Assembly: GCA_015143295.1 (NCBI GenBank)
Contig: CM026565.1
Span: 33,240,052 to 33,304,051, forward strand
Length of the DNA stretch: 64,000 nt
Direction of reading: 5' to 3'
Origin: Tetracentron sinense
Taxonomy: Eukaryota; Streptophyta; Magnoliopsida; Trochodendrales; Trochodendraceae
How positions within the stretch are numbered: the first letter of the stretch is position 1; the number at the start of each line of letters is the position of its first letter. Of the stretch, positions 19,300 to 48,979 are shown in pieces. Made by a program: the position numbers and the translations under genes. Below the pieces are notes generated by a model, which had not been told where the DNA came from, did not search any database, and was given only the letters and a program-made list of their open reading frames with translations.

Positions 19300-19815
19300 T
19301 AACTTTATTTCTCTTTACCAATGTGTTAAAATTTAATTGGTGTGGTCAGTTTGGAAGAGGATCCTGGGGTCCTCTAATCATAACTATTTTTAGAAACGCA
19401 ACCCAATGCGGCCTAATATGGCTGCACGTACTATGCACATACACACGTGATTAGCAGTGGTTAAAAGTCTATAACCCTTAGGATCAACATTCTAACCTTG
19501 CCTAATATAGTTATATACAACTACTAGGCTGTACGAGTGCATGTGCCATGCATGTGATTAACCGTGGTTAAGATTTTATAACCCTTAGGGTTCAACATTC
19601 TAACCTTGGGTGGTAAATTTAATAGTTTTAATTCCATTTAGGGATCACCATTCTAACCTTGGGTTGTAAATTTAATTATTTTCATTCCATATTGTTCATA
19701 TTAACCACGATTAAGTAAGGTTAAAAGGGAGACGTGTTAACCTGTGGGTGCAATTGAACTCTCCCCCGGAGTTCAATCGCGATTGGCTGTGATTTTATCT
19801 TAAAATAGATCCCCC
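19300..19815. repeat. Upstream flank of gene B with MITE-like remnants
   Basis: Contains repeated 'taaccttgggttgtaaatttaat' and 'gttaagatt...aacccttagg' words and, at 19755-19800, GAGTTCAATCGCGATTGGCT, the terminal region of the MITE family seen complete at 24616-24969. No gene. Confidence 0.55.
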
Positions 19816-19942: not shown

Positions 19943-22900
19943 ATGGCTTCCAAGGAAATTTTCCTGTTCATTTTCTTATGCATTAGCATGAGATCTTATT
20001 CTGCTGTTGTAGAACCAGACTCCCTTACACAAGGCGACCAGCTCATGGACTACCAGCACTTGGTTTCTGCAGGTGGGATCTTCAAATTAGGATTCTTCAG
20101 CCCCGGAAATTCGAAGCAACGGTACATAGGAATATGGTACAGTAATGATTCAAATGAAAATATAGTCTGGGTTGCCAACCGAGACAACCCCATCAGCGAC
20201 ACCTACGGAGTTCTCACCATCGACGGTGATGGAAAATTGAAAATCGTACACGGGAACGAGACTCTTGTTGTTTTGAATTCCGATCAAACAACTACAAATG
20301 CAACTGCTACTTTAGAGGATACAGGAAATTTTGTAATGAGAGAAGTGAATTCCAAGCGGGTATTGTGGCAAAGCTTCGATTATCCTACAAACACCCTTCT
20401 GCCCGGGATGAAACTAGGTGTGAATTTAAAGACGGGGCATAGATGGTCACTTGTTTCATGGTTAAGCAGTGAGGAACCAGCTACAGGAGCCTTCACCCTC
20501 GGCGGGGACCCCAACGGCACGACGCAATTATTCATGTGGCAGCGAGGGGACCTTTACTGGACTAGTGGGGCATGGCGCAACGGGACTTTCGAGTTCTTCG
20601 AGTTTGTGTCTTGGAACGCGGTGCATCCAAAGTACCAAATGGAATACATTTCAGATGGGGATGAGAAGTACTTCACTTATAGCGTTAAGGATGGAAGTAA
20701 ATCGATGTGGGTAATGGAGCCATTGGGGCAAATCGCGGACAAGCAGGGACGAACAACAAGTTCTATTGGAACATCCAATTTTTGTGATGGCTATAGCTTT
20801 GATCAAGGGTGTTTGGGGCCTAAGCTGCCGGAGTGCAGGAATAGTAGTAAAGATGTGTTCGAGCTTAAATACGGTAGCATAAATGGTGATCCCTATAAGA
20901 TAGATGGAAATTCGAGTTTGGGACTCAGTGATTGTAAGGTCGAGTGCACGAGCAATTGTTCTTGTGTTGCTTATACTTCTCATTATACAAATGATACGGG
21001 ATGCGTGTTTTGGAGCAGTGGATCGAGTATTGAAGAGTATACGAATGGAATTCAGATGTACGTTCTTGGTTCACACAAAGGTAAGTCTATTTTATCAGCA
21101 ATGAAAGGATGTAAAAGCATATGAATGGTAGGGGTGGCCCTGGTGAGAGGAACTTAGCAGAAATGGATGTTGCAGGGCTCACACGGCTGCAACCACCCAA
21201 TAGGCAGCTTAACACACACAAAAAAAAGTGGCACTTTAGTATAAAACAGAGCTCCTGCTATTTAGTGTAAAACAGTGACACTTTTATAATTAGAGAGAGC
21301 GGAAATTTTGCAAAACACTTTCTCTCTCATAATTACATTGCACTACAAAGGGGAGCTCTGCTTCTCTGCTGGGAAGTGGAGCTCCTCTTTGTATTTAAAC
21401 TGAAAAAAATTTCAACCTGTTTTTTTACTTTAAATATGCATAAGTGGAGGCTCTGCTTTAAAGCTTTGAAATCAAACTCTCCTTTGTCATTACAATTGAT
21501 GGTAGTTCTATAATTGTAGGAGAAATCATGCTTAATTTTTTTTCCGTAATTACATAATTGTCATTTAGCTTGCATTGAAATATGGAGCTCCATCAAACGC
21601 GTTGACGCATTAGTTCCGACTCTTCTCAAACTCTTTTTTTATTACTCCAGAACAATAGCTCACACACAAAATGAGCTACTAATACATCACAAAATGTGTC
21701 AGACACGTATACATCCCGAAAAATCTTCTCTACTATTATTACTAAAGATCATAATTTCACACATTTTCTTAGGTGTCTGTAGCCACGGGGTGGTTGCAGC
21801 CCTGGGCTGCAACAGCTATTGCAGCAATGATGATGGGTTGGGTAAGAGAGAGAAAAGTCCCAGCCCACATTCTAGGACTTGCAATTGATCTCTGTTCAAT
21901 TTAGGAAGTGCCTATAAGTGCAGGAAAGTTTTGGCTCCTCTTTGAACTAACTGATTAATTTTGAAATATTAGCATCACACACATTTATGCTATGTTTGGT
22001 TGCCAAGAAAATAGGTGAAAACATGGAAAATAAAATAAAATTTTAGATTTCTATTACAATTTTTAGTTGTGTTTTGTTCAATTTTCTATTCTTTTCCATG
22101 TTTTTACTTATTTTCTCGGCAACCAAACATAGGGTTAATGAGCTTGAAAACAGTAGTTAATGATAATTATTCTATGGAATATAGTGCCCCAGAGAAGTGG
22201 TTGTAAGTACATAATACAATTACGTGGCGGAATGCTAAGTATATTTGCATTTTCATACTCTCGTCCTTTGCAGATAATACAACACATGACTGTGCCAAGT
22301 AGTAGCTTAATACAAAAATTGTTCCATTATAGAAGAGGAGAGAGTATGGAAACTTTCTGAATGTGAGACTATCTTAGCATTCCTCTCTCTCTCTATCTGA
22401 CACACACACACACATATGTATATTTGTAAGTTTCCTGGATTAAATATGTACAGAAAATTGATTCTTGTCATTGAATCCTAAGTGCCCAGAATCGGAAGCA
22501 AGAGTGGGAAGGCGGGAGTAAAGATACTCGAAGGTTAGGAATACCTTCATTCATATATAGATTAACAAAAAGCTTTCTTGAATTCTTCATTTCTCAATAG
22601 GAAATACGCAAAATGGCTTACAAATTGTTGAATATGAGATAAATAGATAAATGGTATCTGCTTGTTAGTGCAGGAAAGTATTGGTGGATATGGTTTTGCA
22701 TTGCAGTAGCAGTTGCTCTAGTTATACTTCTCTTGGTCTATTTGTACTGCTTAAAGAGAAAAGTCAGACTAGAAGGTAATCTCTCATAGTAAAAAAAACA
22801 AAACTAAACAAAAGCTGAAAGGGTGATTCTCATGATCCAACATTGTATATTCCCATGTGAGCAACATTTCTAATTTGTATGTATACTAAACAGGGGAGAA

Positions 22901-24406
22901 GGAAGCAAGCAAGGCGATGTTATTCTCTGAGCTAGAAAGTAATACAACAACTTGTGATAATTTTGTCGATGCAAATGAGCTTGACAAAGAAGGAAAGGGT
23001 CATGATCTGAAAATATTTAGTTTTGCTTCTATAATGGCTGCCACAAACAACTTCTCATCTGAAAATAAGCTCGGCGAGGGTGGTTTTGGGCCTGTTTACA
23101 AGGTAAACAAGACTCTTAAATCAAAATGCTTTGAAAAATTAATATCAAATGTTACTTAAGAATTACCATTTCAGGGAAAATTAATCGAGGGGCGAGAAAT
23201 AGCTGTAAAAAGACTTTCAAGAAGTTCAGGACAAGGACTAGTGGAATTCAAAAATGAGATTATTCTTATTTCCAAACTCCAACACATGAATCTTGTTAGG
23301 CTTTTGGGTTGCTGCATGCAAGGAGAAGAAAAGATGCTAATCTATGAATTTATGCCCAACAAAAGCTTGGATTTCTTCCTCTTTGGTTAGCAATTTTTTT
23401 CAAATCAATTATATCTATTTCTTCAGTTTAGTGGTACTTCCAACTCTGTTTGTCTATTACTAATTATATTTATAAATATTGCTACGAGACAGATCCTAGT
23501 AGGAGGGAGCTTTTAGGCTGGAAGAAACGTTTCAACATCATCGAAGGGATCACTCAAGGACTTCTTTACCTTCATAAATATTCTAGACTGAGAATAATTC
23601 ATAGAGATTTGAAAGCCAGCAACATTTTACTGGACGTTGACCTGAACCCAAAAATTTCAGATTTTGGCATGGCTAGAATTTTTGGGCGAAATGCATCAGA
23701 AGCAAATACAAATAGGATTGTTGGCACCTAGTAAGTTAACAACACCTGAACCAAAACAAAAAAAAGTTAACAACACTTACTATATATGTATATATACAAG
23801 TGTTTGCACACTCACAAGCATGCATATTCCCTTAATACTAAGAAATTCTTCTTAATGATTAAATACAGCGGTTATATGTCTCCTGAATACGCAATGGAGG
23901 GAATTTTCTCAGTGAAATCTGATGTATTCAGCTTCGGAGTCTTACTATTGGAGATTGTGAGCGGCCGAAAGAACAACAGTTTCTATGAACTTGATCGCCC
24001 TCTCAACCTTATTGGATATGTAAGTTACTGAAATAAATCTCTAGACCTTTTCATTTTGCATTAAGACCTTGCTGACATTGTAAAGTAATTTGAAAATTTT
24101 CAGACATGGGAGTTGTGGAATGAAGGTACTAGCTTAGAGCTAATGGATCCGACGTTGGGTGCTTCATGTTTGAAGCAGGAAGTCTTGAGATGCATTCATG
24201 TGGGTCTGTTGTGTGTGCAAGAAAATGCAATGGACAGGCCCAACATGTCGGATGTTGCTTCTATGCTTAGTAATGAAACAATACCTCTACCTCCTCCAAA
24301 ACAACCTGCATTTTCTACTGGGAGAACTATTACTGGAGCAGATTTATCCAAGTCAGAGAAATTCTCCGTAAATGGACTAACAATTTCTGTGATGGAAGCC
24401 CGATAG
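19943..24406 (+). CDS. Gene B: intact S-domain (G-type lectin) receptor-like kinase, CES101-like
   Basis: Seven exons join in frame: 19943-21080, 22674-22775, 22894-23102, 23175-23385, 23493-23730, 23869-24019, 24104-24406 (2352 nt, 783 residues), all with GT-AG introns. Exon 1 carries a signal peptide (about 1-21), a B-lectin domain (about 24-155, with WVANRD at 76-81 and [15 protein letters not shown] at 141-155), an S-locus glycoprotein-like region, and a Cys-rich PAN-like region (about 315-375). There is no EGF module. Exon 2 encodes the membrane span (about 383-406) and a KRK stop-transfer. Kinase: [10 protein letters not shown] 474-483, Lys495, Glu511, HRDLKASN 590-597, DFG 610-612, SPE; the C-terminus ends in [11 protein letters not shown], typical of the family. 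It is an RD kinase, expected at the plasma membrane. The chosen start is the ATG shared by copies C, E, F and G; the in-frame ATG at 19832 would bury the signal peptide. Ligand unknown. Confidence 0.93.
21988..22134. mobile_element. Tourist-like MITE in intron 1 of gene B
   Basis: 147 bp with inverted ends (CTATGTTTGGTTGCC and its complement GGCAACCAAACATAG), flanked by TTA on both sides (21985-21987, 22135-22137). Copy C has the empty site in its intron 1 near 31290-31305 (acatttaataagctt), which confirms the 3-bp duplication expected of PIF/Harbinger-type elements. Confidence 0.88.
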
Positions 24407-24615: not shown

Positions 24616-24969
24616 GAGATCGAATCACAGCCAATCGCGATTCAATTCAAGGAGAGTTCAATCACCCCCCCAGGTCAACATGTGTTCACTTTGACTCCTA
24701 TTAACCGTGGTTAAGATTCTCTAACCCTTAGTGTTCAATAATATAACCTTAGTTTTTCTAAAAAATATTAACCCTAAGAGTTAAAAATTCTCAACTAGAG
24801 TTAAATATTTTTAAACATCTTTTTCAAAAAATTAAAGTTAGATTATTGAACACTAAGGGTTAAAGAATCTTAACCACAGTTAATAGGTGCTAAGGGGAAC
24901 ACGTGTTGACCTGTGAGAGCAATTGAACTCTCCCTGAATTCAATCTCGATTGGCTGTGATTCGATCTCA
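24616..24969. mobile_element. Foldback MITE downstream of gene B
   Basis: 354 bp. Inverted ends contain GAGATCGAATCACAGCCAAT and run on for more than 40 bp; the arms also hold 'gttaagattctctaaccctta' and its complement. It is flanked by AGGTCTAG (24608-24615 and 24970-24977). The equivalent place after copy G (about 61486-61500) is empty, so the insertion is confirmed. The 8-9 bp duplication and long arms suggest a Mutator-type MITE. Relatives: 19.75 kb, 31.83-31.93 kb and 59.04-59.29 kb. Confidence 0.85.
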
Positions 24970-26462: not shown

Positions 26463-27313
26463 TTTTTTTTTGGGTATGAGATGCGGTTAGGTTGCAACCC
26501 CGGTTAGGTGTTAGTATATGTTCTAAGTCAAAGTCGGTGGAGATGACACTCACACCTTCTTGGGAATGGAACCCGGATCACAGGAGTGGTGAGGAGCACA
26601 CACTACCGATGGGGCAAGCAACGTTTCTAGAAACTACCGATGGGTAGGGGTGCACATAATTCGGTTTGGTACGGTTTTGAGAATTTTTGGGACCGAACCG
26701 ATGAACCTTGGTTCTAAAAAACCAACCCAGAACTGAACCATATAGCCTCGGTTTGAAAAAAAATCAACCCAAGACCGAACCGTAGAGCCTCGGTTCAGTT
26801 CGGTTCTACCCACGGGTTTATAATCTGCTCCTAATGTCGATAAATCCAATAATTCACATTCTTAATGTACTAAAATCAAAATTTAAATCTCATCAATGAA
26901 CAAAAATAATCACTAATTAAAACAAATTAAATTGGAACAAAGAGGGGAAGGTAGAGGCGGAAGGGATATTAGGGTTAGGTTTAAAAAAAAAAAAATTATA
27001 AGACCTAGAACCGGTTCGGTTCGGTTTTCATACGGTTTTCGGCTCTCGGCTTCACATTCAGCATTTGGTTCTAAGTTTGGTTTGGTTCTCGGTTCGGTTC
27101 GGTTCGGTTCAGTTTCAAATTGAAATAAACCGGGACCGAACCATAGAAAATCAGTTTAAGTAAAATATGACTAAGAATCGAACCTTGCCTTTAAAAAACC
27201 CGAACCAAACCGAACCATGGTGGTTGGTTCGGTTCAGTTCATGGTTTGAGCCGTACCCATGTTTTGAGCCGTACCCATGTGCACCACTACCGATGGGACA
27301 AGCATCACTTCCT
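26463..27313 (-). mobile_element. SINE-like retroelement, split by a hAT element
   Basis: A poly-T run at about 26463-26473 marks the tail of a - strand element. Read on the - strand, the body has a tRNA-like promoter-type box GGGTTCCATTCCC (26563-26580 region) and a GCTTGCCCCATCGGTAG start. The outer flanks carry AGAAACGCAAC on both sides (26452-26462 and 27314-27324), an 11-bp target duplication. The 5' part appears partly duplicated around the hAT insertion (GATGGGGCAAGCA, GATGGGACAAGCA). Confidence 0.65.
26645..27289. mobile_element. Non-autonomous hAT-type element
   Basis: 645 bp with ends TAGGGGTGCACA and TGTGCACCACTA and a perfect 8-bp duplication CCGATGGG (26637-26644, 27290-27297). 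The body is dense in GGTTCGGTTCGG / CCGAACCGA words in both orientations, as in the subterminal repeats of hAT elements. No transposase coding. It lies inside the SINE-like element. Confidence 0.85.
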
Positions 27314-27357
27314 AGAAACGCAACCTTCCCAAAAAAAAAAAACAAATTAGCAAGAGA

Positions 27358-27695
27358 CCAAATCCTCTAAGGTGATAACTGGATTTGGCAAATCCGGTTA
27401 TCACCCCTTGAGGTTGCCACGTGTCCCTTTTGAGACCTCTTAAGTGTGGTTAAGATCTACCCACCCTTACAGTTCACCCACCCATCTTTTTTTTTTAGAA
27501 AAAAATATTAATTCTTTTTTAATATTTTAATATTAAAAAATCTCAACAAATAGTTTTTTAATTTTTAAAAAAAGAAATAATATTTAATTAAAAAAACCAA
27601 GGATGTGTGTGAAAGAGACACGTGGCAACCTCAAGGGGTGATAACCGGATTTGCCGATTTGCCAAATCCAGTAATCACCGTAGAGGATTTGGTTT
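27358..27695. mobile_element. Foldback MITE just upstream of copy C promoter
   Basis: Inverted arms ACCAAATCCTCTA...GGTGATAAC-like and its complement enclose CCACGTGTCCCTTTTGAGAC-like sequence and an AT-rich centre. The flanks share TTAG(C/T)AA, an imperfect 10-bp duplication. It ends about 85 bp from the TATA-like motif of copy C and so may change its regulation. Confidence 0.7.
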
Positions 27696-27786: not shown

Positions 27787-28555
27787 ACATCGTGAGAGAG
27801 CGAGCTTTACACTGTTCCCTAATGGCTTCCAAGAAAATTTTCCTCTTCATTCTCCTATGCATTTCCATGAGATCGTATTCTGCTGTTGTAGAAACCAACA
27901 CCATTACACAAGGCCACCAGCTCATGGACTACCAGCACTTGGTTTCTGCTGGTGGGATCTTCAAATTAGGATTCTTCAGCCCCGGAAATTCGAAGCAACG
28001 GTACATAGGAATATGGTACAATGAAGGTCCAGATTATATAGTTTGGGTTGCCAACCGAAACACCCCCATCATCGACACCTACGGAGTTCTCACGATCGAT
28101 GCTGATGGAAATTTGAAAATTTTACACGGGGATGAGACTCTTATTGTGTTGAATTCTAATAAAGCGACTACAAATGCAACTACTACTTTAGAGGATAACG
28201 GAAATTTTATATTGAGAGAAGTGAATTCCAAGCGGGTACTGTGGCAAAGCTTCGATTATCCTACAAACACCCTTCTGCCCGGGATGAAACTAGGTGTGAA
28301 TTTAAATACGGGGCATAGATGGTCACTTGTTTCATGGTTAAGCAGTGAGGAACCAGCTACAGGGGCCTTCACCCTCGGCGGGGATCCCAACGGCACGACG
28401 CAATTGTTCATGTGGCAGCGAGGGGACCTTTACTGGACTAGTGGGGCATGGCGCAACGGGACTTTCGAGTTCTTTGAGTTTGTGTCTTGGAACGCGGTGG
28501 ATCCAAAATACCAAATGGAATACATTTCAGATGGGGATGAGAAGTACTTCACTTA

Positions 28556-29927
28556 GGTGACGTTTGGTTAGACTTCTCACAAAAGAAAAATACTTCCTCA
28601 AGAGTTACTTCGCCGGAAGTAACTCCTGAGGAAGTTTGAAAAAGTCATTAGATGAGAGATTAGTGTTTGGCTTACACATCTGAAAAGTGAATCTCAAAAA
28701 CCCCAAAATTAATTTTGTGTTTGTTTGCACTTACAAGAAATTTGAAAGATATTGTCAGTACCCTTTTTTGCATGGTTCTTTGCCAAAATTACCCTCCCTT
28801 GGATAAAATCTTTAAATTGAATGAAATCCCTTTTAAAATAAATTAAATGGTCTTTTAGAAATATTTTTCATTTTTTTTGATTTTTTTATAATTTTACCAA
28901 AATGTCCATGACTTTTGAAAATCACGCAAATACCCATAGAGTTCAAAACCATTTAAAATTTTCAAAATGAGTTGCAAAATGTTAATTAATATTTTTATTT
29001 CCTAATTTTACCTTTTTTAAATATATTTTTTTGTATTTTAAAAAGCTTTTTATTAAAAAATACTTAACTTTTCAACAAATGACATTTACGTCCTTTGTCT
29101 TCAACCTCAGGCAAGAACGCTACTGGCAGGGTTTTGAAATCTGTTTCTTTTATTTTGCTTGGTTTTCTCCAAAAAAAAAAGGGATTTATGCATAATCTAT
29201 TTAAACCTTATCCAAAGGATTTCCAACCCATTTGAATCAACCAAAATCCAAACCGTGAACAATGGGAGAGTTTGGATAAAACCAAAACTCTCCCATTCTC
29301 CTCCATTTTCAGCCAATCCCCAAGGCCTTTGCCCCCAATCTAACTCATTTGAAATCCTATCAATACAACATTCAAAAAACGAATGAGAATGAGAAATTTT
29401 TAAGGAAAAAAAACTTTTGGAGAGAAGAATTGAGAAGAAAATATAGGGAAAAAATCTGGGAGAAGACAATACTATTCATCGTCTTCAACCTGCTGCAAGC
29501 ATAGGAATTCTTTCGCAAAGAATGAAAAACTGTTGCAGAAAAAATAAAAAATTATGGGTTGCAAACCAACTGATTCTATGATAGATACCGTAGATTAGAT
29601 TAGGGAAAAGAGAGGAAAAGATGAAGAAATTACCGACGGAAGCAGCAGAGGGAAGGAAGATGAGGCTGACCATGAACGGTTAAGAAAAAAAAAAAACCTT
29701 CGTTCCCGCAAAACACCGTCAACTTCCCGCGGAAATTGTATCAACTTCCCACGGAAGTAACAAAGACCCTACTTTCCGGGGAAATAGAAATTTCGACTTT
29801 CACCGACTTCCACTTTTTCTGGAAGTGAAAATGATATTGGCAAACCAAACACGAAAATATCCCACTTTTGACTTCCCCTAACCTAGAAGTCGTAAAAGTC
29901 ACTAGGGAAGTCTAACCAAACGCCACC
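28556..29927. mobile_element. PIF/Harbinger-type non-autonomous element in exon 1 of copy C
   Basis: 1372 bp. Inverted ends match at 20 of 21 positions (left starts GGTGACGTTTGGTTAGAC, right complement starts GGTGGCGTTTGGTTAGAC). It is flanked by TTA (28553-28555, 29928-29930); gene B has a single TTA at this codon. Subterminal regions carry repeated short words such as ACTTCC and GGAAGT in both orientations. The body (28700-29700) has no open frame long enough for a transposase. Confidence 0.93.
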
Positions 29928-30736
29928 TTATAGCGTTAAGGATGGAAGTAATTCGATGTGGGTGATGGAACCGTCGGGGCAAATCGCGGACAAACGGGAA
30001 CAAACAATAAGTTATATTGGAACATCCAATTTTTGTGATGGCTATAGCTTTGATCAAGGGTGTTTGGGGCCGAAGCTGCCGGAGTGCAGGAATAGTAGTA
30101 AAGATGTGTTCGAGCCGAAATCCGGTAGCATGAATGGTGATGCCTATAAGATTGATGGAAATTCGAGCTTGGGACTCAGTGATTGTAAGGCCGAGTGCAC
30201 GAGCAATTGTTCTTGTGTGGCTTATACAGAACATTATTCAAATGGTACGGGATGCGTGTATTGGAGCAGTGGGCCGAGCTTTAAAGAGTATACGAATGGG
30301 AAACAGATGTTCATTCTTGGTCCAAACAAAGGTAAGTCTACCTTATCGCCAATGGAAGGATGTAATAGTATATGAATGGTAGGGGTTGGCCTGGTGAGAG
30401 GAACTTCGCAGCAATGGATGTTGCAGGGCTCACACGGCTTTAACCACCCAATAGGCAGCCTTAACACAAAAAAAAAAAAAAAGTGACACTTTAGTGTAAA
30501 ATAGAGCTCCAACTATTTAGTGTAAAACAGTGGCACTTTTGTCATTAGGGAGGGAGGCAATTTTGCAAAACACTTTCTCTCTCATAATTTATAAGATTGC
30601 CACCCTTTGCACTACAAAGGGCAGCTCTGCTTCTCTACTGTGAAGCGGAGCTCCCCTTTGTATTTAAACTGAAAAAAATCTCAACCTGTTTTTTTACTTT
30701 AAATATGCATATGTGGAAGCTCTGCTTTAAATATTT

Positions 30737-31415
30737 GAAATCAAACTCTCCTTTGTCATTACAATTGATGGTAGTTCTATAATCAGAGGAGAAATCATGC
30801 TTACAAGACTGTCATTTTTTTTCCGTAATTACATAATTGTCAGTTAGGTTTGCATTGAAATATGGAGCTCCATCAAACGTGTTGAAGCGTAGTTCCGACT
30901 CATCTAAAACTTTTTTAATAACTCAAGAACAATAGCTCAAACACAAAATGAGCTGCCAATACATCACAAAATGTGTCAAAACAAGTATACATCCCGAAAA
31001 ATCTTCTCTACTATTATTACTAAAGATCATAATTTCGCACATTTTCGTATGTGTCTGTAGCCCATTGGGTAGTTGCAGCCCTGTGCTGCAACAGTTATTG
31101 CAGCAATGGTGATGGGTTGGGTAAGTGAGAGAGAGAGAAGTCCCAGCCCATATTCTAGGACTTGCATTTGATCTCAGTTCGATTTAGGAAGTGCCTATAA
31201 CTCAGTTCAATTTAGGAAGTGCCTATAAGTCCAGGCCAGTTTGGCTCCTGTTTGAACTAACTGATTAATTTTTGAATATTAGCATCACAAACATTTAATA
31301 AGCTTGAAAACAGCAGTTAGCGAGAGAGAGAGAAGTCCCTGCCTAACACAAAAATTGTTCTATTATAGAAGAGGAGAGAGTATGGAAACTTTCTGAATGT
31401 GAGACTATCTTAGCA

Positions 31416-31488
<73 letters not shown>

Positions 31489-32480
31489 TTGAAATCAAAC
31501 TCTCCTTTGTCATTACAATTGATGGTAGTTCTATAATCATAGGAGAAATCATGCTTACAAAACTGTCATTTTTTTTTTCGGTAATTACATAATTGTCAGT
31601 TAGCTTTGCATTTAAATATGGAGCTCCATCAAACGTGTTGAAGCGTAGTTCCGACTCATCTAAAACTTTTTTAATAACTCCAGAACAATAGCTCAAACAC
31701 AAAATGAGCTGCAAATACATCACAAAATGTGTCAAAACAAGTATACATCCCGAAAAATCTTCTCTACTATTATTACTAACTAGCAGGTGGCACATGCGAT
31801 GCACGTGAGAGTAAGGGGAATGAGTTAACCACAGTTAATAGGAGTTAAAAGGAACACGTGTTAACCTGTAGGTGTGATTGAACTCTCCCTGAGTTCAATT
31901 GCAATTGGCTGTGATTCTATTCTTTAAATAGATAGATGAGTAAGGGATAGTTTGGGAATTAAAATAAAATATTAAATCAAAGTTTTATTTTATGAGGGTA
32001 TGTAGGGAATTTTGAAAAAATCAGGCTACGCCTGGCTCTCGCATTATAATAGTAAAGAAGATCATAATTTCGCACATTTTCCTATGTGTCTGTAGCCCAT
32101 TGGGTAGTTGCAGCCCTGTGCTGCAACAGTTATTGCAACAATGGTGATGGGTTGGGTAAGTGAGAGAGAGAGAAGTCCAAGCCCATATTCTAGGACTTGC
32201 ATTTGATCTCAGTTCAATTTAGGAAGTGCCTATAAGGCCAGGCTAGTTTGGCTCCTGTTTGAACTAACTGGTTAATTTTGGAATATTAGCATCACAAACA
32301 TTTAATAAGCTTGAAAACAGCAGTTAACGAGAGAGAGAAGTCCCTGCCTAACACAAAAATTGTTCTATTATAGAAGAGGAGAGAGTATGGAAACTTTCTG
32401 AATGTGAGACTATCTTAGCATTCCTCTCTCTCTCTCTCTACACACACAAACACACACACATATATATATATATATATAAA
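30737..32480 (+). repeat. Tandem duplication within intron 1 of copy C
   Basis: The segment starting GAAATCAAACTCTCCTTTGT at 30737 recurs at 31491, 754 bp later, and the two copies run in parallel through 'cccattgggtagttgcagcc' (31060, 32097) to a (TC)n(AC)n(AT)n microsatellite at about 31418-31488 and 32423-32478. The join lies in the microsatellite. Gene B has one copy of this stretch. The second unit holds an extra 275-bp insertion. Confidence 0.88.
31779..32055 (-). mobile_element. Insertion with Helitron-like end, in intron 1 of copy C
   Basis: Absent from the other unit of the tandem duplication (31018-31022 region), so it is a bona fide insertion of about 275 bp. The left edge is ACTAGCAGGTGGCACATGC, then GATGCACGTG; the right edge is CTCTCGCATTATAATAG. 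The left edge resembles 34992 and 62290, which share a C(C)CGTGC...GCACAG hairpin beside CTAG. That is compatible with a Helitron 3' end read on the - strand, but no clean A/T junction could be shown. It also contains a piece of the MITE family of 24616-24969 (31825-31925). Confidence 0.45.
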
Positions 32481-34509
32481 TTTAAGTTCCTGAAATAAAT
32501 ATGTACAGAAAATTGATTCTTGTCATTGATTCCTAAGTGCCCAGAATCGGAAGCGAGAGTGGGAAGGCTGGAGTGAAGATACTCAAAGGTTAGGAATACC
32601 TTCATTCATATATGGATTATCAAAAAGTCTCCTTGAATTCTTCATTTCTCTATAGGAAATATGCAAAATGGCTTACAAATTGTTGAATATGAGATAAATA
32701 GATAAATGGTATCTGCTTGTTACTGCAGGAAAGTATTGGTGGATATGGTTTTGCATTGCAGTAGCAGTTGCTCTAGTTATACTTCTCTTGGTCTATTTGT
32801 ACTGTTTAAAGAGAAAAGTCAGACTAGAAGGTAATCTCTCATAGTAAAAACAAAAAAAACAAAAGCTGAAAGGGTGACTCTCATGATCCAACATTGTTTA
32901 TTCCCATGTGGGCAACATTTCTAATTTGTATGTATACTAAACAGGGGAGAAGGAAGCAAGTGAGGCGATGTTATTCCTTGAGCTAGAAAGTAATACAACT
33001 TCTGATAAATTTGTCGATGCAAATGAGCTTGGTAAAGAAGGGAAGGGCCATGATCTGAAAATATTTAGTTTTGCTTCTATAATGGCTGCCACAAACAACT
33101 TCTCATCTGAAAATAAGCTTGGCGAGGGTGGTTTTGGACCTGTTTACAAGGTAAACAAGACTCTTAAATCAAAATGCTTTGAAAAATTAGTTTCAAACAT
33201 TGAGATGTTACTTAAGAATTTCCATTTCAGGGAAAATTACTCGAGGGGCAAGAAATAGCTGTGAAAAGACTTTCAAGAAGTTCAGGACAAGGACTAGTGG
33301 AGTTCAAAAATGAGATTATTCTTATTTCCAAACTCCAACACATGAATCTTGTTAGGCTTTTGGGTTGCTGCATGCAAGGAGAAGAAAAGATGCTAATCTA
33401 TGAGTTTATGCCCAACAAAAGCTTGGATTTCTTCCTATTTGGTCAGCAATTTTTTTCAATTCAATTACATCTATTTCTTCGGTTTAGCAGTACTTCCAAC
33501 TTAATTTGTTTGTCTCTTACTAATTATATTTGTAAATATTACTACGAGACAGATCCTAGTAGGAAGGAGCTTTTAGGCTGGAAGAAACGTTTCAACATCA
33601 TCGAAGGGATCGCTCAAGGACTTCTTTACCTTCATAAATATTCTAGACTGAGAATAATTCATAGAGATTTGAAAGCCAGCAACATTTTACTGGACGTTGA
33701 CCTGAACCCGAAAATTTCAGATTTTGGCATGGCTAGAATTTTTGGGCGAAATGCATCCGAAGCAAATACAAATAGGATTGTTGGCACCTAGTAAGTTAAC
33801 AACACTTACTATATATGTATATACATATACATATATATATATATATATATGTTCAAGTGTTTGCACACTCACAAGCACGCATATTCCCTTAATACTGAGA
33901 AATTCTTCTTAATGATTAAATACAGCGGTTATATGTCTCCTGAATACGCAATGGAGGGAATTTTCTCAGTGAAATCTGATGTATTCAGCTTCGGAGTCTT
34001 ACTGTTGGAGATTGTGAGTGGCCGAAAGAACAACAGTTTCTATGATCTTGATCGCCCTCTCAACCTTATTGGATATGTAAGTAATTACTGAAATAAATCT
34101 CAAGACCATGTGATTTTGCATTAAGACCTTGACTAACATTTTAAAGTAAACTGGAATTTTCAGACATGGGAGCTGTGGAAAGAAGGTACTATCTTAGAGC
34201 TAATGGATCCAACATTGGGTGCTTCATGTCCAAAACAGGAAGTGTTGAGATGCATTCATGTGGGTCTGTTGTGCGTTCAAGAAAATGCAATGGACAGACC
34301 CAACATGTCAGACGTTGTTTCTATGCTTAGTAATGAAACAATGCCTCTGCCTTCTCCAAAACAACCTGCATTTTCTACTGGGAGAAGTATTACTACAGCA
34401 GATTTATCTAAAGCCAAGTCAAGGAAATATTCCGTAAATGGACTTACAATTTCTGAGATGGAAGCCCGATAGAGCTATTGGTTTCCATGACCATATATCT
34501 CATATAGAT

Positions 34510-45016: not shown

Positions 45017-46754
45017 TTTTTTTTTTTTTTTTTTTTTATAAGAAGAGCCGGAAGCCACCCACATAGCAGCCCCGTCCCAAATTTATTAATAAGCCCTCAC
45101 TTGTGGCGGAGGAATACCGTGGGAACAGAAGGACACTTGGGGTTTACAGAATAACACCCTATGCAACAAAACAAACAAAAAGGGCAAACTAACCTAACCA
45201 AAACCAACAATAACCCTCTAAACATGTCTAATATATGCCGTACCCATCTTATCCAATCTATACAAACCTTTGATAATTCTAGGAAGCTGAGCACTATTTG
45301 TAAACAAATTATTCCTCCCCATGGCACCTTGCCGAGCCAAAGCATCTGCCACTTTATTCCCTTCTCTATACGAATGCTTTATAGAAAAATCTACTCCCTC
45401 CAATAAACTAGTAAGCTGCTCCCAAAAATCCCACAAATACCATAAAGTGCAGTTTCGGGACCTTATCCAATTTACTACGATAGTCGAATCGCATTCAATG
45501 TCTATACCATTATGATCCAATTGCTTACAAATATTTATACCTTCCAGCACCACTCGCAATTCAGCTTCATTATTAGAACAAGAACCAAAACATTTTGAAA
45601 AACCAAAGATAAGAGAACCTGTACAGTCTCTAAGGATACCACCACCACCAGCCGGACCTGGATTCCCGAAGCTACTCCCATCCAAATTGAACTTCAACCG
45701 CCCTTGTCTCGGTTTTAGCCATCTCACAATTTGCATAGCTTTATTCTTTTTTTTTGCCATCGGCACTTCCAGATTATTCAATATCCGAACATCAGATTCA
45801 TTTAAATGCGTCATATCATTCATGTTCTTACTCAAAATCCTCACCCAATGCTTGATGGACAGCCAAACATCTGCACTACTCTCCAATTTCCCCTCCATTC
45901 TAGCCACGCATCTCCTTCTCCACAACCTCCACACTACTAAACAAGGAATCAAACCCATCAATGTTCCCAATTGGGAGTATCGGGAAGCTCTATTAAACCA
46001 GATCTGGACTCTTTCTTTCCAGTTTTGGTGCCTAAGGAATGGAACTCCTACCTCCACCGAAACCTTCCTCCATATATCAGCAGCAAATTCTCCCTTATTC
46101 AAGACATGCTCCAAATCTTCTGATTGTCTTGAATCACAACAATCACATGCTGAAGCAAGAGACACCCCCACTCTTCTCACCTTTTCATCAACACTTAAGC
46201 ACTCAAAAGCTGTTTTCCACATACAGATAGCAATTTTCTTCGGTAACCATTTGTGCCAAACCCACTTCGCCCATTCAAAATTTGGTGCTCTAAATCTGAT
46301 CGCATCCCATGCCGATTTTGTAGTAAAGCAACCATTCTTTTCTGGGAGCCATAAAAGGATATCAGAGGAACTTCTAAGATATCCAACTCTTTCTATCACT
46401 TCTTCAGCTTTATTTAAACCCAGAAGCATTTGCAAATTTTCCATATCCCACACATTATTAATAAACAATTCTTTTAATCTTATATGAGAATGCTCTCCTT
46501 CTGGAATTTCAGAAAACAGAGGACCCGAATCCAGAAAATTATCATACCACAATTTTACATTTCCTTCTCTAACCTTCCACTTAAATTTACTTAAAAGCTC
46601 TGGCATGCACTGCATAATTTTCTTCCAAAAAGAAGAGTCCGATCTATGTGTCACACTAAGAGTAAGATGCCCTCCTTTCACATATTTAGCTCTGAAAAAT
46701 CTAGCCCATAAGAAATTCTGGGTTAATAACTGCCAACCAAACTTCATAAATAAA
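45017..46754 (-). mobile_element. 5'-truncated L1-type LINE in intron of copy D
   Basis: A poly-T run at 45017-45037 is the poly-A tail of a - strand element. Paralogous introns lack it. ATGTTT flanks both sides (about 45014-45019 and 46756-46761), a short target duplication. The element starts within ORF2 downstream of the reverse transcriptase core, so it arrived truncated. It lies antisense to the host gene. Confidence 0.88.
45218..46747 (-). CDS. LINE ORF2 C-terminal part: zinc-binding region and RNase H
   Basis: 509 codons, still open, which suggests a fairly young insertion. Residues about 130-235 match the zinc-binding region that follows reverse transcriptase in plant LINEs (KWLPKKIAICMWKTAF, then CDCCDSRQSEDLEHVL); the last zinc ligand position reads Gly rather than Cys. 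Residues about 350-480 are an RNase H fold with all four acidic residues visible: FNLDGSS, NNEAEL, ECDSTIV and VADALA. Endonuclease and reverse transcriptase are missing, so the piece cannot transpose alone. The first Met is only the first ATG in the truncated frame, not a natural start. Confidence 0.88.
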   Translation of the reverse strand: MKFGWQLLTQNFLWARFFRAKYVKGGHLTLSVTHRSDSSFWKKIMQCMPELLSKFKWKVREGNVKLWYDNFLDSGPLFSEIPEGEHSHIRLKELFINNVWDMENLQMLLGLNKAEEVIERVGYLRSSSDILLWLPEKNGCFTTKSAWDAIRFRAPNFEWAKWVWHKWLPKKIAICMWKTAFECLSVDEKVRRVGVSLASACDCCDSRQSEDLEHVLNKGEFAADIWRKVSVEVGVPFLRHQNWKERVQIWFNRASRYSQLGTLMGLIPCLVVWRLWRRRCVARMEGKLESSADVWLSIKHWVRILSKNMNDMTHLNESDVRILNNLEVPMAKKKNKAMQIVRWLKPRQGRLKFNLDGSSFGNPGPAGGGGILRDCTGSLIFGFSKCFGSCSNNEAELRVVLEGINICKQLDHNGIDIECDSTIVVNWIRSRNCTLWYLWDFWEQLTSLLEGVDFSIKHSYREGNKVADALARQGAMGRNNLFTNSAQLPRIIKGLYRLDKMGTAYIRHV

Positions 46755-48979
46755 GATGTTTACTAGTTATATTTACAAATATTACTGCGAGACAGATCCT
46801 AGTAGGAGGGAACTTTTAGACTGGAAGAAACGTTTCAACATCATTGAGGGGATCGCTCAAGGACTTCTTTACCTTCATAAATATTCTAGACTGAGAATAA
46901 TTCATAGAGATTTGAAAGCCAGCAACATTTTACTGGACGTTGACATGAACCCAAAAATTTCAGATTTTGGCATGGCCAGAATTTTTGGGCGAAATGCTTC
47001 TGAAGCAAATACAAATAGGATTGTCGGCACCTAGTAAGTTTACAACACTATATATACAGGTGTTTGCAATCTCACAAGCATGCATATTCCCTTAATACTG
47101 AGAAATTCTTCTAAATGATTAAATATAGTGGTTATATGTCTCCTGAATACGCAATGGAGGGAATTTTCTCAGTGAAATCAGATGTCTTCAGCTTCGGAGT
47201 CTTACTGTTGGAGATTGTGAGCAGCCGAAAGAATAACAGTTTCTATGATCTTGATCGCCCTCTCAACCTTAATGGATATGTAAGTTACCGAAATAAATCT
47301 CAAGACAATTTGATTTTGCATTAAGATCTTTTTTCCTAGATTAAGACCTTAACTGACATTGTAAAAGTGAACTAAAAATTTTCAGACATGGGAGCTATGG
47401 AAAGAAGGTACTATCTTAGAGCTAATGGATCCGACGTTGGGTGCCTCATGTTTGAAACAGGAAGTGTTGAGATGCATTCATGTGGGTCTATATATTGTGC
47501 GTGCAAGAAAACGCAATGGACAGACTCAACATGTCGGATGTTGCTTCTATGCTTAGTAATGAAACAATGTCTCTACCTCCTCCAAAACAACCTGCATTTT
47601 CTACTGGGAGATATATTATTGAAGCAGATTTATCTATAGCCAAGTTAGAAAAATATTCTGCAAATGGATTAACATTTCAGTGATGGAAGCCCGATAGTGT
47701 GTGTGTTTAGAGAGTGTGTTAGTTACATGATATCATTTCAACCAAAAAAAGAAACCCGACAGAGCTATTTGTTTCCATGGCCATATATCTCATGCAATGA
47801 TTTTTTTTTCTTTATTTGTATCACATAAGAGATATATGTTTATGCATATTGTGTCCGTTTACGCAAATAGTTAGAATTTTAAAGCCATATTGGTACTCTA
47901 TTCATTTCGAGGGAATCCTATTTTAGAAATACAGTAAATCAAGGAGGATCACCAACTGAAATCTATATCATCTGAGACCTAGACATCATGAGAGATCATC
48001 GTGCTTTACACTGTTCGCTAATGGCTGCCAAGGGAATTTTCCAATTCATTTTCTTATGCATTTGCCTGAGATCTTGTTCTGTTGTTTCAGAAACAGACAC
48101 CATTACAAAAGGCCAAGAGCAATTGGACAACCGCCGCTTGGTTTCTACAGGTGGGATCTCTAAATTAGGATTCTTCTGCCCCCGGAAGTTCGAAGCAACG
48201 GTACATAGGAATAAGGTACAATGAAGATCCATATGAGAATAGAGTTTGGGTTGCCAACCGAGACACCCCCATCATTGACACCTACGGAGTTTAACCATCG
48301 ATGGTGATGGAAAATTGAAAATTGTACACGAGCAGGAGACTCTTATTGTGTTGAATTCAAATGCAACTGCTACTTTAGAGGATACAGGAAATTTTATTAT
48401 GAGAGAAGTAAATTCCAAGCGGGTATTGTGGCAAAGTTTCGATTATCCCACTAACACCCTTCTCCCCAGGATGAAACTAGTTGTGAATTTTAAGGCGGGG
48501 CATAGATGGTCACTTGTTTCATGGTTAAGCAATGAGGAACCAGCTACAGGGGCGCTTTCACCCTCAGCAGGGACCCCAACGGCACGACGCAATTGTTCAT
48601 GTGGCAGCAAGGGGACATTTACTGGACTAGTGGGGCATGGTGCAACGGGACTTTCGAGTTTTTTCAATTTCTCACTGGGTTCGCGCCCGATGAAAAAATA
48701 AAAAATAGAATACATTTCAGATGGGGATGAGAAGTACTTCACTTATAGCATTAAGGGTTGAAATAATTCGATGTGGGTGATGGAACTGGCGGGGCAAATC
48801 ACGGACCTGGAGGGACGATCAAAGAGTTATATTGGAACATCCGCTATTTGTGATGGCTATAGCTCTGATCAAGGGTGTTTGGGGCCGAAGCTGCCGGAGT
48901 GCAGGATTAGTACTGCAGATATGTTCCAGCAAAATTTCGGTACCATGACTGGTGACTTTAAGATAGATGGAAATTCGAG

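Follow-up and report, generated by a model that had tools for sequence, protein, structure and literature searches.

A transposable element interrupts exon 1 of a receptor kinase gene

Is an inserted element all that separates one receptor kinase gene of Tetracentron sinense from function, and was the gene still maintained when the element arrived? The window, by which we mean the whole 64,000-nucleotide stretch of contig CM026565.1 analysed here, holds a tandem cluster of G-type lectin S-receptor-like kinase genes, which are SRK-like and belong to subclass SD1. The gene in question, copy C, has seven exons and occupies positions 27822–34472 on the + strand, as do all of the exons given below. 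Its exon 1 is split in two: the left part (27822–28555) comprises 244 codons plus the TA of the next, ends with the first of two TTA copies and encodes a B_lectin domain (Pfam, E 1.3e-32), and the right part (29931–30331) encodes a PAN_2 domain (Pfam, E 1.3e-9). The hydrophobic run encoded by exon 2 (32729–32830) probably forms the transmembrane segment. After exon 3 (32945–33150) the kinase, as matched by Pfam over exons 2–7, continues through exon 4 (33231–33441), exon 5 (33553–33790, with HRD and DFG), exon 6 (33926–34076, with SPEY) and exon 7 (34164–34472), which holds the end of the kinase, DUF3403 and a TAG stop. The B_lectin, PAN and kinase domains of a G-type lectin S-receptor-like kinase are thus all present, together with the hydrophobic segment, DUF3403 and the seven exons of this class; copy C departs from the class in that the allele is split by an insertion and in that S_locus_glycop misses the E 0.001 cut-off both in the two parts of copy C exon 1 and in exon 1 of paralogue A.

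Between the two parts of exon 1 lies a non-autonomous element of PIF/Harbinger (Tourist) type (28556–29927, + strand), 1372 bp in length, with 33.7% GC as compared to 45% in exon 1, and without a long ORF. Its 21-bp terminal inverted repeats (left, 28556–28576, + strand; right, 29907–29927, − strand) read GGTGACGTTTGGTTAGACTTC and GGTGGCGTTTGGTTAGACTTC and differ by a single mismatch; by a rough count, chance would yield ~0.002 such inverted pairs up to 2 kb apart in the window. The flanking TTA is duplicated (28553–28555 and 29928–29930), and the interval 28553–29930 assigned to the insertion by an earlier, sequence-only reading is exact when both TTA copies are included. The TA of the duplication and the first base of the element, G28556, together form a premature TAG stop at 28554–28556, codon 245. 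With the element removed and the flanks joined over a single TTA, spliced copy C is 2352 bases long and encodes 783 residues with one terminal stop; its six introns are all GT/AG, and the five kinase motifs sought (glycine loop, AVK, HRDL, DFG and SPEY) are all found.

Paralogue A (19943–24406, + strand) is intact, has the same seven exons, is likewise open for 783 residues, and reads CACTTATAGCG at the insertion site (20669), without the element. The copies at 48735, 55743 and 58219 are also unoccupied, which makes four unoccupied paralogues in the window, counting A. Of three distal copies at about 33.07–33.09 Mb of the same contig, two are unoccupied and the third gave no match to the short patterns used. 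Comparison among the paralogues indicates that the ancestral state of the site is unoccupied. With the inverted ends, the TTA duplication and these empty sites, the sequence-only reading was right to describe a precise PIF/Harbinger-type insertion in exon 1, and right that the frame without it is open for 783 residues. A dispersed fragment of exon 1 of the copy C gene, ~260 bp long, also occurs on a different chromosome, C2 (~30.187 Mb), and on the unplaced contig C854 (~77.4 kb); these two fragments are mostly 91% identical to copy C, lack ~40 bp and are 99.7% identical to each other.

The element belongs to a multicopy family

We searched the same genome with the element as a DNA query and scored 40 of 800 candidates, so that all family counts are lower bounds: at least 71 family matches and at least eight full-length copies. 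All eight full-length copies listed are flanked by 3-bp duplications (TTA at five, TAA, TTC and TTT at one each), and the end motif, with up to two mismatches allowed, occurs at 263 + 260 sites in the genome as compared to 1 + 1 for a reversed control. The genome contains 160 matches to DDE_Tnp_4; at the ten of these loci that we scanned, ~1.5 kb on each side, the inverted-end pair of the element is absent, and four of the ten have a single end match with six mismatches. On its sequence features the family fits PIF/Harbinger (Tourist-like), an assignment that rests on the ends and the duplication because no transposase with matching ends was found at the ten loci. CACTA is unlikely, as CACTA ends differ. 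A 3.5-kb relative with ~2.1 kb extra between its ends is found on C7 (~37.36 Mb) and C364 (~316–319 kb); the C364 copy resembles an alternative haplotype, and the C7 copy has no ORF longer than 75 residues inside its ends.

In its 3-bp TTA/TAA duplication, its multiple copies and its lack of a long ORF, the element resembles the Tourist-like MITEs of PIF/Harbinger, such as mPing of rice, with which it also shares short inverted ends beginning with GG. Unlike mPing, which is 430 bp long, the copy C element is 1372 bp long and has no transposase partner among the ten loci; its end sequence differs from that of mPing as well.

A recent insertion into a probably long-constrained gene

How recently did the element arrive? 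Among the full-length copies listed, the nearest differs from the copy C element by 5/1372 substitutions. What sets the copy C element apart among the eight full-length copies is a set of four base changes, one of them also present in the most distant copy, together with two small deletions. The insertion age comes to 0.0029 substitutions per site (95% 0.0008–0.0075), which is mainly an upper bound on insertion time, since some of the changes may predate the insertion or come from methylated sites. With an assumed yearly rate between 2e-9 and 1.3e-8, the point estimate corresponds to 1.5 to 0.2 million years. The split between A and C lies much deeper: their dS of 0.147 amounts to 0.0737 on each lineage, ~25 times the divergence of the element. 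Over the whole gene, A and C show a dN/dS of 0.32, with a lower value in the kinase (0.11) and a higher one in the two ectodomain parts (0.42 each).

Since the A–C split, ~173 neutral changes would be expected in the coding sequence of copy C. Under an assumed indel rate, the probability of finding zero stops or frameshifts is ~1e-9 if the gene has been neutral since the split, and ~0.45 if it has been neutral since the insertion. These odds argue that copy C was maintained and then lost recently, and the gene appears to have been under constraint during most of the time since the A–C split. Given that the A–C duplication is ~25 times older than the insertion, the otherwise unbroken coding sequence is consistent with prolonged constraint followed by a recent loss.

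We consider it very probable that, taken as a whole, the history of the locus is the knock-out of a previously maintained copy C by the recent insertion of a non-autonomous element. The sequence shows that copy C kept a working frame after splitting from its neighbour A. A non-autonomous PIF/Harbinger-type element, presumably moved by a transposase acting in trans, then recently entered a TTA in exon 1. The resulting stop at codon 245 prevents this allele from encoding the complete receptor, short of removal of the element by splicing; if the allele yields a protein at all, it would be a short B-lectin fragment, and the transcript is probably unstable. On this account, further coding lesions are absent because the time since the insertion has been too short for them to accumulate. 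Four observations count against this history: the failure to find a transposase with these ends at the ten loci, the TTC or TTT duplications at two of the eight full-length copies, the limited alignability of the A and C promoters and the distribution of changes on the C branch (the latter two are detailed below).

The insertion may be polymorphic

If the insertion is this young, does it segregate? The sequence-only reading proposed, plausibly, that the locus may be polymorphic and suggested looking for another haplotype without the element; in the 1.161-Gb assembly no such haplotype was found. Querying the assembly with the left portion of exon 1 returned no second copy of C (the next best match being paralogue A, at 92%), and the joined empty-site sequence, with up to three mismatches, is present in two paralogues only and in no empty copy C of this one assembly, which shows one haplotype of the locus.

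Published accounts of Tetracentron sinense describe public resequencing data for 55 trees, a heterozygosity of 0.22% and a within-population diversity of 6.48–11.25e-3; PMC7709256 names the BioProject, PRJNA625382, whose title also mentions RNA-sequencing. Three haplotig pairs, presumed to be alleles, were used (C364/C7, C854/C2 and C924/C10; two other pairs overlapped these). Counting mismatches only, two of the three stand close to 0.22% (11/5606 and 5/2324), and the third is at 11/1878. Two pairs of transposase loci, 98.7 and 97.3% identical, were not taken as allelic. Under a neutral model that takes no account of structure or selection, and whose intervals span 0.00–0.87 overall, an insertion age of 0.0029 set against the depth of 0.0032–0.0056 given by the published diversity yields a probability of 0.41–0.60 (intervals 0.10–0.87) that the insert is missing from a second chromosome; the reported heterozygosity or the haplotig pairs yield 0.05–0.37 (intervals 0.00–0.76).

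Polymorphism in the species, through continued segregation of the ancestral intact allele or, with lower probability, of an allele restored by precise excision, is compatible with a recent knock-out, and we give it somewhat less than an even chance: the diversity-based estimate speaks for it, and the lower estimates and the single haplotype of the assembly at copy C speak against it. The fuller proposal, of a presence/absence polymorphism that still segregates for an otherwise intact cell-surface receptor, with the functional ancestral allele common and possibly differing among structured Tetracentron sinense populations, we put forward tentatively, as possible but leaning towards doubtful.

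Empty alleles, if there are any, are explained more simply by ancestral origin than by excision; they require no excision, since the insertion may be so recent that the ancestral allele is still present. The statement of the sequence-only reading that Harbinger-type elements often excise precisely finds a divided literature. PMC4561436 agrees that Tourist-like elements generally do so. PMC4423477 reports that rice excisions nearly always come with deletions or filler, quotes two studies of mPing, one in which 83% of about 30 excisions were precise and another in which one of about 70 was, and gives Harbinger insertion:excision ratios of 4.4 and 8.2; according to PMC10288884, smaller elements excise more and larger ones less. 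Our literature searches returned no paper that joins PIF/Harbinger MITEs with precise excision and target site duplication, none on the loss of function of a receptor-like kinase through a Harbinger/MITE insertion and none whose title concerns transposons inserted into, or presence/absence variation of, G-type lectin kinases.

Was copy C silent before the insertion?

The sequence-only reading held that copy C is knocked out only by the insertion. For the coding exons and the six introns this stands; for the promoter it goes further than the alignment, in which continuous A–C homology ends 94 bases upstream of the copy C start codon. The two promoters cannot be aligned continuously beyond −94/−99, and farther upstream A and C match only in repeats and in two stretches of 39 and 36 bp, which leaves room for an earlier loss of expression. 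A blastn hint that the proximal promoter of copy C had been displaced 2.8 kb upstream was rejected: the matching pieces belong either to a repeat, which recurs in intron 1 of copy C and in the 3′ flank of A, or to gene A itself, at its 3′ end.

Two elements lie upstream of copy C. The first is hAT-like and 645 bp long (26645–27289), with an 8-bp duplication, CCGATGGG, at 26637–26644 and 27290–27297; the second, a foldback element with long inverted arms (27357–27693), sits ~130–465 bases upstream of the start codon and has related pieces upstream of A. Intron 1 of copy C contains a duplication relative to A (30740–31300 and 31488–32304), the second duplicate being interrupted by an insertion to which the repeats at 19701–19810 and 24870–24962 are related.

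Could copy C, then, have already been silent, through loss of its promoter or relaxed constraint, when the element landed? Besides the discontinuous promoter and the elements upstream, this finds support in the cluster itself, where, of the seven window copies that were compared, five are incomplete or bear lesions. The polarised changes point weakly the same way, with a nonsynonymous:synonymous ratio of 37:23 on the C branch and 23:21 on the A branch (P 0.42, with 44 of the 148 differences ambiguous in direction); the tendency towards relaxation on the C branch is small and not significant. Against it stand the kinase dN/dS of 0.11 and the complete lack of coding lesions despite the ~173 neutral changes expected since the split, and we regard prior silencing as unlikely. 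In another copy, a 509-codon ORF (45218–46747, − strand) lies between kinase exons 4 and 5 and looks, by eye, like a retroelement remnant of RNase H type.

Can the interrupted allele still yield a product?

Were the element removed from the transcript as an intron, copy C could still make a near-full receptor. There are 17 in-frame, stop-free donor–acceptor pairs (donors 28380–28553, acceptors 29905–29999), the cheapest of which, with a donor after 28543 and the exon resuming at 29934, keeps the frame at a cost of 15 bases. The element is also richer in AT than exon 1, and AT-richness favours intron recognition in plants. However, given the many GT and AG dinucleotides, some in-frame pair is expected by chance, and the donor GAA|GTACTT scores −0.6 on an approximate donor table, with donors of copies A, C and D at −1.1 to 7.8. 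We hold in-frame splicing around the element to be unlikely, as we do premature polyadenylation inside it, and a near-full receptor made in this way to be very improbable.

Very improbable too is a functional, truncated, secreted lectin-domain protein of 244 residues, comparable to Xa21D of rice: the left part is open and carries the B_lectin domain, and AATAAA motifs occur within the element on the gene strand (28837 and 29543), but the fragment would have no PAN domain, and after so recent an insertion selection on it could not yet be visible. In Xa21D, as at copy C, one member of a receptor kinase family is cut short by a mobile element; there, according to PMC8866362, the extracellular domain that is retained confers partial resistance, whereas copy C would leave a partial lectin fragment only.

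What the locus means for the receptor repertoire

The recent knock-out of a maintained copy C thus remains our preferred account. Transposon knock-out of one member of a receptor kinase cluster is commonplace, and the phenomenon at copy C is an ordinary one of this kind. What the locus offers is a clean case, in which a receptor gene has been caught soon after its loss and the unoccupied site is still visible in its neighbours. The public resequencing of the 55 trees could reveal whether the loss of copy C is fixed; if it proves polymorphic, recent transposon activity would be linked to differences in receptor repertoire in a relict tree.
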